Part shown: positions 36,422 through 38,429 of the stretch, in pieces
Numbering within the stretch: the stretch's first letter is position 1
How the letters are laid out: each line of letters begins with the position of its first letter
Assembly (NCBI RefSeq): GCF_003111665.1
Contig: NZ_CP022188.1
Location: 3,720,001 to 3,784,000 of the forward strand
Reading direction: 5' to 3'
Origin: Parazoarcus communis
GTDB taxonomy: Bacteria > Pseudomonadota > Gammaproteobacteria > Burkholderiales > Rhodocyclaceae
Length of the DNA stretch: 64,000 nt
Program-made: the position numbers and the translations under genes
The notes under the pieces: model-generated
What the model was told of the DNA's origin: nothing
What the model saw: the letters and a program-made list of their open reading frames with translations, nothing else
Database searches by the model: none

Positions 36422-37291
36422 CTACTCCGGGGACACCAGGCCGCGAGCGAAACACAGATCCTCCCACGCCTTGCCCTTGTCCTGCGGATTACGCAGCAGG
36501 TAGGCGGGGTGATAGGTGACCACCACCGGAACACCCTGACGCTCGAAGCGCTTTCCGCGTGCAGCGCCGATGCTGATCCCGGTATCCAGGAGTGCCTGCG
36601 CCGCCGGGCGCCCGAGCGCAATCAACAAGCCCGGCTGGACCAGTTCGATCTGGCGCTGAAGGAAGGGTAGACAGGCCGCGATTTCGTCCGCCTCGGGCGT
36701 GCGGTTGTGCGGCGGCCGGCACTTGACCGCATTGGCAATGAAGACCTGATGTGCCCGCGTCATCCCCAGCGCACCGAGCATGTTGTCGAGCAGTTTGCCC
36801 GCCTGCCCGACAAAGGGTTCCCCGAGGCGATCCTCGTCCGCGCCTGGCCCCTCGCCCACCAGCATCCAGCTTGCGCTGCGGTCGCCAACACCGGGCACCG
36901 CCTGCCTGCGCTTCTCGCACAGTCTGCAGGCGCGACAGGCACGGATTTCGTCTTCGAGGCCGGCCCAGTCGAGACCGGCGATGCGCGCACTTCTGAGCGG
37001 GTCAGGCGTCGTTTGTTGTGGTGAGGCGGGCGCTGGTGCTCGGGCGGGAGGCGCGGATTTTTCCGTAACGGGGGCCGGCGCCGGTCGCTGCACGACAGGC
37101 CTCTCCTGAGGCTTTGGAGTGCTGATTTGCCCGGCGGGATCGACGCGCGCATGCCGCGTCGCAGGCACCACCTCGGCGCGATGACCGGCAGGCCGCGGCT
37201 CAGGGACGACATCAGCCTTCGGGCTGCTACGGAGCCGCCACAAGGGCGCGAGCCCCATCTCCCTTAGCAAGGCAGCGCGCTGCGGTGTCAC
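36422..37291 (-). CDS. Family 4-type Fe-S uracil-DNA glycosylase with a HolD-like N-terminal peptide
   Basis: A 289-residue protein. Residues 115-289 are a family 4 uracil-DNA glycosylase. They have cluster cysteines (CRACRLC, NAVKC, ACLPF), motif 1 GEGPGADEDRLGEPFVGQAGKLL and motif 2 HPAYLLRNP. Residues 25-110 are a Pro/Ala-rich, probably disordered linker. Residues 5-21 read RAALLREMGLAPLWRLR. This resembles the N-terminus of E. coli HolD (psi: RRDWQLQQLGITQWSLR), the peptide that binds HolC (chi). Like holD in E. coli, the gene adjoins rimI. It may therefore tether uracil repair to the polymerase III clamp loader, an inference. It overlaps rimI by 4 bases. Confidence 0.87.
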   Translation of the reverse strand: MTPQRAALLREMGLAPLWRLRSSPKADVVPEPRPAGHRAEVVPATRHARVDPAGQISTPKPQERPVVQRPAPAPVTEKSAPPARAPAPASPQQTTPDPLRSARIAGLDWAGLEDEIRACRACRLCEKRRQAVPGVGDRSASWMLVGEGPGADEDRLGEPFVGQAGKLLDNMLGALGMTRAHQVFIANAVKCRPPHNRTPEADEIAACLPFLQRQIELVQPGLLIALGRPAAQALLDTGISIGAARGKRFERQGVPVVVTYHPAYLLRNPQDKGKAWEDLCFARGLVSPE

Positions 37292-37743
37292 AGGGCCGCC
37301 TTCATCACGATCGCATCTTCACGCCCGTCGGCTGCAGGGTAATAGCCCTTGCGGCGGCCGATCTCGATGAATCCGGACCGGTTGTAAAGCGCAAGCGCAG
37401 GCTGGTTCGACGGACGTACTTCAAGGAAGAATTCACGCGCGCCACTATGCCTTGCCTGCGAAAACAGGTGCGCGAGCAGCCTGCCCCCGCGCCCCTGGCC
37501 CTGAGCATCGCGTACGATGCTGATATTGAGCAGGTGCGCTTCATCGAGCACCCCGAGCACAATGCTGTAGCCAATCGGACGTCCCGCCTCGTGCATGATC
37601 CAGCTGGCGTACCCGGCAGCAAGTGCATCCGCAAAATTTCCCTTGGACCACGGGAATGGATGCAGACTGGCCTCTTGGTCGCTGACCCAATCGAGGTCAT
37701 CTTCAGACATCGGCGTGAAGACGGTCGTCTCGCACACGGTCAT
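37288..37743 (-). CDS. rimI: Ribosomal protein bS18 N-acetyltransferase RimI
   Basis: A 151-residue GNAT enzyme. SLHPFPWSKGNFADAL is the RimI-type N-terminal block. The acetyl-CoA loop is RDAQGQGRGGRLLAHLF, and FLEVRPSNQPALALYNRSGFIEIGRRKGYY is highly typical of RimI. It acetylates the N-terminal alanine of ribosomal protein bS18. It is translationally coupled on both sides (4-base overlaps with tsaB upstream and the glycosylase downstream). Confidence 0.93.
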   Translation of the reverse strand: MTVCETTVFTPMSEDDLDWVSDQEASLHPFPWSKGNFADALAAGYASWIMHEAGRPIGYSIVLGVLDEAHLLNISIVRDAQGQGRGGRLLAHLFSQARHSGAREFFLEVRPSNQPALALYNRSGFIEIGRRKGYYPAADGREDAIVMKAAL

Positions 37744-38429
37744 GCCTTGCCCCCGCGCGCGAGGCGTTCGGCTGTCGTCAGTGCGACCTTGTCGCGCACG
37801 TAAAGTGGCGCCGCGCGCTCAGCGGGCAAGACTTTTCCGAGACGGACCTGCTCCGCGGCCAGCAGCGCGACATCGCGTGCACGCGGCACCGCGTCAGCAT
37901 CGCTCCCGAGCAATTGGTCATGGAAGCGTTCGCTCAGCCTGTCGCCATACGCCTTGAAGGCAGAGCCGATTCCCCACCATTTTCCATCCGGCAACTCCAG
38001 CGCATCGGGGCCAGCGCATCCAGCGTCGCTGCGCGGTCGCGCAAGCCCGTTCTCGACAACACAGGCGCGAAAATAGATCTCGCCCATTCGTGCATCAGTG
38101 GCGGCCAGGACGTTTGCTTCCGGCGCCTGCATCGCAAGCGCGTCAAGGCTGCATACTGGAACCACACCAAGCCCTGCGCCAAGCGCAAGCCCCTGCGCAA
38201 TTCCGCAGGACAGACGCAAACCGGTGAATGCACCGGGGCCACTGCCAAAGGCCACCGCATCCAGACGATTTACGCCGATACCGCCATCGGCCAGTAACTG
38301 ACGGATGACGGACAGGATGTACTCGGAGTGATTGGCGTGCCCCTCGAGCAGCTGCTCCCGGAGATCTCCGTCCATGTACAGCGCAACACTGGCGTGTTCG
38401 CAGGAAGTTTCGAGGGAGAGTAAATTCAT
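37740..38429 (-). CDS. tsaB: tRNA threonylcarbamoyladenosine biosynthesis protein TsaB
   Basis: A 229-residue ASKHA-fold protein with NLLSLETSCEHASVALYMDG at the N-terminus and AFGSGPGAFTGLRLSCGIAQGLA in the middle. It is the non-catalytic partner that, with TsaD and TsaE, makes t6A37 on ANN-decoding tRNAs. It is the first gene of tsaB-rimI-udg, and the tsaB-rimI pairing is common in proteobacteria. Confidence 0.94.
   Translation of the reverse strand: MNLLSLETSCEHASVALYMDGDLREQLLEGHANHSEYILSVIRQLLADGGIGVNRLDAVAFGSGPGAFTGLRLSCGIAQGLALGAGLGVVPVCSLDALAMQAPEANVLAATDARMGEIYFRACVVENGLARPRSDAGCAGPDALELPDGKWWGIGSAFKAYGDRLSERFHDQLLGSDADAVPRARDVALLAAEQVRLGKVLPAERAAPLYVRDKVALTTAERLARGGKA

Follow-up and report, generated by a model that had tools for sequence, protein, structure and literature searches.

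In Escherichia coli, the clamp-loader subunit psi (HolD) contacts each of the three tau subunits at domain III through its N-terminus, and SSB is bound by chi (HolC) (PMC3290774). The N-terminal part of psi is described as disordered, conserved, and required for clamp-loader binding, and removal of the first 85 residues of Pseudomonas aeruginosa psi does not abolish its co-purification with chi (PMC3197488). Genes for chi occur in alpha-, beta-, and gammaproteobacteria, and psi is given, in the passage of PMC3290774 on this point, as known only in gammaproteobacteria, with either undetected divergence or a direct chi-tau binding offered as the cause of its absence; the background of PMC3197488, citing a structure paper, likewise describes chi in places where no psi can be identified. 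Here, we analyzed a window of 64,000 nucleotides from Parazoarcus communis (contig NZ_CP022188.1, positions 3,720,001 to 3,784,000). A minus-strand gene at 36422..37291, termed psi-UDG below, encodes a family-4 uracil-DNA glycosylase (UDG4) of 289 amino acids (aa) with a GTG start and a psi-like N-terminal peptide, as recognized from its open reading frame (ORF), TIGR00758, PF03167, and a psi profile. We consider it likely that this protein is a bifunctional replisome component, namely, a HolD orthologue that has kept an intact UDG4 domain.

The psi-like peptide comprises residues 5 to 21 (RAALLREMGLAPLWRLR; 37229..37279, minus strand) and was assessed by conservation, a regular expression, hidden Markov model (HMM) tests, and an AlphaFold 2 (AF2) model. 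Loci were drawn by the UDG4 core model alone. From a sample of 143 genomes spread evenly over the class (Gammaproteobacteria), we obtained 110 loci in 109 genomes, out of 117 with any match, and 4 of the loci (L198 to L201) score under the family cut-off. The order (Burkholderiales) contributed 66 loci from 66 genomes, out of 77 with a match, 3 of them under the cut-off and with G000 and G107 left out. The regular expression, which describes motifs such as L-x-x-M-G-I-x(2,3)-W N-terminal to the core, matched 94/110 class loci versus a mean of 1.9 and a maximum of 7 in shuffled controls, and 54/66 order loci versus a shuffled mean of 1.6. Another script, with its own choice of regular expression and domain, gave 92/110 and 55/66, and at least one match (L113) looks like chance. 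Most class peptides read YLxxMGIxxWxxR, with the exact spacing of E. coli HolD (RRDWQLQQLGITQWSLR), and those of the window's order are usually longer by one residue (MGLxPxW). The window peptide has the three residues of psi (L9, G13, and W18; L9, G13, and W17 in E. coli) with one residue inserted. Thus, the HolD-like peptide that the first-pass annotation had picked out by eye is real, and the one-residue offset that it had noticed is a true feature of this lineage. Its view that the glycosylase is psi agrees with our results, but not its restriction to betaproteobacteria, since the peptide is spread over the whole class; compared over class and order, the UDG4 N-termini carry it recurrently and mostly beside rimI.

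The peptides were also compared by HMM. A model built from 25 distinct HolD N-terminal peptides matched 75/110 class UDG4s and 0/2463 other ORFs at an E of ≤1, and a model built from 90 UDG4 peptides matched 55/56 HolD/psi proteins at an E of ≤1e-3. A chance likeness of a short amphipathic peptide might be suspected, because the match seen by eye comprised no more than L-x-x-[LM]-G-[IL] and W-x-LR, with an offset from HolD, and the window peptide alone scores weakly. However, every HMM match fell on a UDG4, and the motif was observed in 94 loci where 1.9 were expected. A chance match was therefore ruled out on the specificity of the peptide HMM and the shuffled control of the regular expression, and we give this explanation next to no credence.

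The likeness between psi and UDG4 is seen in the globular part as well. The whole psi profile, which includes nine bridging psi proteins, matched the window protein with 29.2 bits (E of 4.4e-11 for a single sequence), peptide and core being colinear, and W276, located in the helix after the HPAYLLR motif, corresponds in the alignment to the Trp that is conserved at the C-terminus of psi. Bridging psi proteins match both the psi and the UDG4 profiles. In 15 chosen genomes with neither PF03603 nor a UDG4 over the cut-off, a rimI-type match was present in 14, and the ORF just upstream of rimI matched the psi profile in 9 of these 14 loci (small search, E of ≤2e-5); a UDG4-profile match is also present in the core of three of these ORFs (L234, L240, and L244), and at the other five rimI loci no convincing upstream psi match was found. 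Such rimI-upstream ORFs (L234, L236, L240, L244, and others) look like further unannotated psi proteins, the psi-like frame of L234 being broken in two pieces. Furthermore, the model of P0121, a PF03603 protein, is UDG-like (built on 5 sequences). Bridging proteins, the psi profile on the window core, and the fold together indicate that the globular domains of psi and UDG4 are probably homologous; psi looks like a degenerate UDG4, and their relation would be one of common descent. The first-pass annotation had instead supposed that a psi peptide was fused to a glycosylase, an idea dropped for homology in view of the bridging psi proteins and the UDG-like P0121 model. Also dropped was the possibility that weak TIGR00758 matches in two HolD genomes (G112 and G139) were HolD itself, as their HolD proteins have no TIGR00758 match. 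The tie of the window's own lineage to psi rests on its orthology with other UDG4s, its position, and the whole psi profile.

Some UDG4s have lost the enzyme. Six class members (L193, L196 to L199, and L201) lack at least 3 of 11 iron-sulfur (FeS) or catalytic residues, and all six (6/6) keep the peptide, four of them directly beside rimI. A non-catalytic function thus seems to be under selection. Two more decayed UDG4s, by the same measure, were found in the order set, and one of them (L281) retains the motif. In L193 (G025:C1:443900-447500), the FeS cysteines are gone and the catalytic motifs and N-terminal peptide are retained. L200 (G133:C32:31000-35700) was left out of the decay series: an apparent intein splits this UDG4 just before the FeS cysteine of its CRPP motif, and its profile match falls in two pieces within one 616-aa open frame.

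Psi and UDG4 also share a genomic neighbourhood. The rimI gene adjoins UDG4 in 79/110 class loci and 63/66 order loci; in 28/110 class loci, no rimI was present in the stretch read, some contigs ending early. UDG4 precedes rimI in 78/110 class loci, which is the gene order of E. coli holD-rimI, whereas rimI lies upstream of the glycosylase gene in the window and in 60/66 order loci. Hence, the earlier parallel to holD stands for the position beside rimI and fails for the order of the two genes. UDG4 was detected over the cut-off in 107/143 class genomes, HolC in 119/143, and PF03603 HolD in 6/143. None of the six HolD genomes has a UDG4 over the cut-off, versus 107/137 of the others (Fisher P of 1.8e-4, phylogeny uncorrected), so that UDG4 and HolD exclude each other in this sample. 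HolC is present in the window's genome, at C1:4803347-4803745. No separate HolD was found there by PF03603 or by HolD profile A3, which includes bridging psi proteins. W57 and F64 of HolC, which are buried in the E. coli HolC-HolD interface (PMC8378479 and PMC4636137), are kept in 20/20 and 19/20, respectively, of the HolCs read, a set hand-picked from the 119 genomes and including that of the window's genome.

Several observations weigh against a psi identity of the window protein. The UDG4-peptide HMM detects just 9/66 order members at an E of ≤1, and the peptide of the window protein, scored by itself, reaches 0.6 and 3.1 bits in the peptide HMMs. The whole protein has no PF03603 match at an E of ≤0.1, being matched only by PF03167 in Pfam and only by UDG models in NCBIfam, and in a fold search of its model, the 50 matches listed comprise UDG-superfamily enzymes, the phage DNA polymerase 9qhs_A, and 3ikb_A, with no psi among them. 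By eye, some seven class loci have Tyr for Trp, and the decayed order locus L283 lacks the motif. Beyond the class, the 27 UDG4 loci that scored highest in the phylum search, which are not a random draw, show neither the Trp motif nor a rimI neighbour (0/27 for each). The P0121 model matches psi modestly (8.1 versus 7.4 to 7.5 for Argonaute-type chains), and 1em8_B (E of 0.015) stands amid unrelated folds of similar E-value in Foldseek. With the peptide removed, the core of E. coli-type HolD is weakly related to UDG4 (hhalign probability of 2.6%; score of 21.8 versus a maximum of 20.7 in 60 shuffled comparisons), so the link of E. coli psi to UDG4 runs through the intermediates and the fold. 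FastTree grouped bridging psi with the decayed UDG4s L201 and L198 (support of 0.88) on a long branch, a placement that may be long-branch attraction and was given no weight. Peptide-bearing UDG4s also occur in genomes with no HolC match (e.g., G063 and G097), and three of the six HolD genomes (G037, G102, and G135) have no HolC match by PF04364. Finally, the conservation of W57 and F64 is supporting evidence and no proof of a psi partner, since YoaA binding needs the same HolC residues (PMC8378479). As side observations, HolC of G037, G102, and G135 may have diverged or been missed, or psi may work without chi there; and 15 of the 27 phylum loci (L285 to L311) have a conserved L[RK][EQ]IGV N-terminal tail, with neither Trp nor a rimI neighbour, which is perhaps an older or ancestral form of the clamp-loader dock.

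Two other explanations have to be considered in the light of these data. The window protein could be an ordinary UDG4 with a convergent psi-like docking peptide for DnaX, psi then being another, unrecognized protein. Short linear motifs evolve readily, and the direct similarity of the E. coli psi core to UDG4 is weak. A comparable arrangement is described for UNG2, whose disordered N-terminal tail binds PCNA and RPA (PMC9266487). Yet the common rimI neighbourhood, the mutual exclusion with HolD, the proteins bridging the two profiles, and the resemblance of a modelled PF03603 protein to UDG exceed a shared motif, and the genome contains no other match to the HolD profile; we hold convergence to be quite improbable. 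Alternatively, psi and UDG4 could be homologous with UDG4 serving here in repair only, the peptide reflecting an older function, such as DnaX docking for repair, and HolC binding tau directly or binding only YoaA. Direct chi-tau binding, or chi roles outside the clamp loader, were raised by Robinson et al. (PMC3290774), and the occurrence of the peptide in some genomes without a HolC match fits this possibility. On the other hand, the decayed class UDG4s all keep the peptide, most of them directly beside rimI, and the HolC residues W57 and F64 persist, though YoaA could account for the latter. We regard a repair-only role as unlikely. A HolD orthologue with an intact glycosylase domain is thus the reading that we prefer, and we lean toward the broader view that psi is an exapted UDG4, still an enzyme in most gamma- and betaproteobacteria, with E. 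coli and its kin as a derived exception in which only the scaffold is left.

If the window protein is such a psi, the N-terminal peptide (approximately residues 5 to 21) would dock in the clamp-loader collar (domain III of tau/DnaX), in the pocket that the E. coli psi peptide occupies in 3GLI. The first-pass annotation had assigned this peptide to HolC. Because of its homology to the psi N-terminus, residues 5 to 21 should dock to DnaX, not HolC: it is tau domain III that the E. coli psi N-terminus binds (PMC3290774), and truncated P. aeruginosa psi keeps chi (PMC3197488). Docking to DnaX would also fit peptide-bearing UDG4s in genomes with no HolC match. From the docked peptide, the flexible linker of ~85 residues would reach outward to the UDG domain, which would represent the psi fold and probably be held by HolC bound to SSB, and the clamp loader would thereby be bridged to SSB-coated single-stranded DNA. 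In this arrangement, uracil glycosylase would stay at the fork, where dUMP incorporation or cytosine deamination yields uracil and where excision may take place; a tethering of uracil repair to the replisome, as had been proposed, is plausible. The small psi of E. coli would be what remained after the enzyme had decayed, in enterobacteria and in several further lineages, with loss of the FeS cysteines, GExPG, and the catalytic His and retention of the peptide, the rimI-side position, and the Trp helix at the C-terminus.

That the glycosylase itself is intact, as the first reading had held, is borne out by a TIGR00758 score of 194.1 bits, above the curated cut-off of 125.3 for a family-4 UDG, and by a PF03167 match (E of 6.3e-38). 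The catalytic core spans residues 106 to 282 (36446..36976, minus strand) and carries, on the same strand, motif 1, GEGPGADE (residues 146 to 153; 36833..36856), and the HPAYLLR motif with the catalytic His261 (residues 261 to 267; 36491..36511), both identified from conserved columns and residue counts. UDG catalytic residues named in PMC5387724 were mapped onto the protein by motif. The FeS cysteines C119, C122, C191, and C207 and the motif residues E147, P149, G150, N187, H261, and P262 are all present, each being retained in 79 or 80 of 80 relatives, a set retrieved in part by means of a peptide word and hence unused for peptide frequency. Between the peptide and the core lies a variable Pro/Ala-rich linker (residues 22 to 105; 36977..37228, minus strand). 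In a set of 49 relatives, which was retrieved with the whole protein and may favour peptide-bearing ones, identity averaged 0.72 over the peptide, 0.75 over the core, and 0.20 over the linker. In the AF2 model, the peptide region forms two short predicted helices (residues 3 to 11 and 15 to 21) with a mean predicted local distance difference test (pLDDT) score of 72 to 75, and linker residues 25 to 56 have a pLDDT of <50.

On the minus strand of the window, psi-UDG closes a run of overlapping genes, tsaB-rimI-UDG. Its upstream neighbour rimI (37288..37743), for ribosomal protein S18-alanine N-acetyltransferase, scores above the cut-off of TIGR01575 (114.2 bits), and tsaB (37740..38429; TIGR03725, E of 1.1e-46) lies upstream of rimI, both on the minus strand. 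The rimI stop overlaps the psi-UDG start by the four bases GTGA (37288..37291, minus strand), as noted earlier, and the two genes may be translationally coupled. The longer, GTG-start form is favoured by the conservation of R5, L9, R10, and E11 (0.73 to 0.88). Database copies P0001 (278 aa) and P0004 begin at Met12, within the docking peptide, a poorer start than the GTG in the rimI overlap. Database relatives are named uracil-DNA glycosylase, DNA polymerase, DNA polymerase III (in one case), or hypothetical protein; such names, and the starts of P0001 and P0004, would change.

Among the openly licensed PMC papers listed in our searches, we found no title or abstract start joining psi with uracil glycosylase; the common fold may nevertheless have been remarked on in publications or databases. 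The protein is a candidate for the missing psi, one that has remained an enzyme. If true, psi gains an evolutionary origin as well, and uracil repair would be part of the replisome, between DnaX and HolC-SSB, in a large share of Proteobacteria. In P. aeruginosa, transposon insertions spare holD, and growth suffers strongly when it is depleted, whereas holC insertions were mostly obtained (PMC8879598); a UDG4 gene might thus turn out to be essential independently of uracil.

Compared with known systems, the window protein shares with psi/HolD of E. coli and P. aeruginosa the N-terminal L-x-x-[LM]-G-[IL]-...-W peptide, the C-terminal K-x-x-x-W helix, a gene beside rimI (E. coli), and a HolC in the genome, and with P. 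aeruginosa psi an extended disordered region N-terminal to the core (PMC3197488). Unlike psi/HolD, it has as its globular part a full UDG4, FeS cysteines and catalytic motifs included, and is not recognized by PF03603, its peptide is one residue longer, and rimI lies upstream instead of downstream. Among family-4 UDGs (TIGR00758; e.g., Thermus thermophilus UDGa, 1ui0, and Thermotoga maritima, 1vk2), the four closest solved enzymes match from chain residue 7 to 24 onward, which leaves no room for a peptide and a long linker. Vaccinia virus UDG differs as a viral enzyme that works with the viral protein A20 and has no known relation to a bacterial clamp loader. Eukaryotic UNG2 belongs to another UDG family and is no clamp-loader subunit. 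It resembles the window protein in being a uracil glycosylase whose sites for replication proteins lie on a disordered N-terminal tail, and differs in its partners, PCNA and RPA (PMC9266487).
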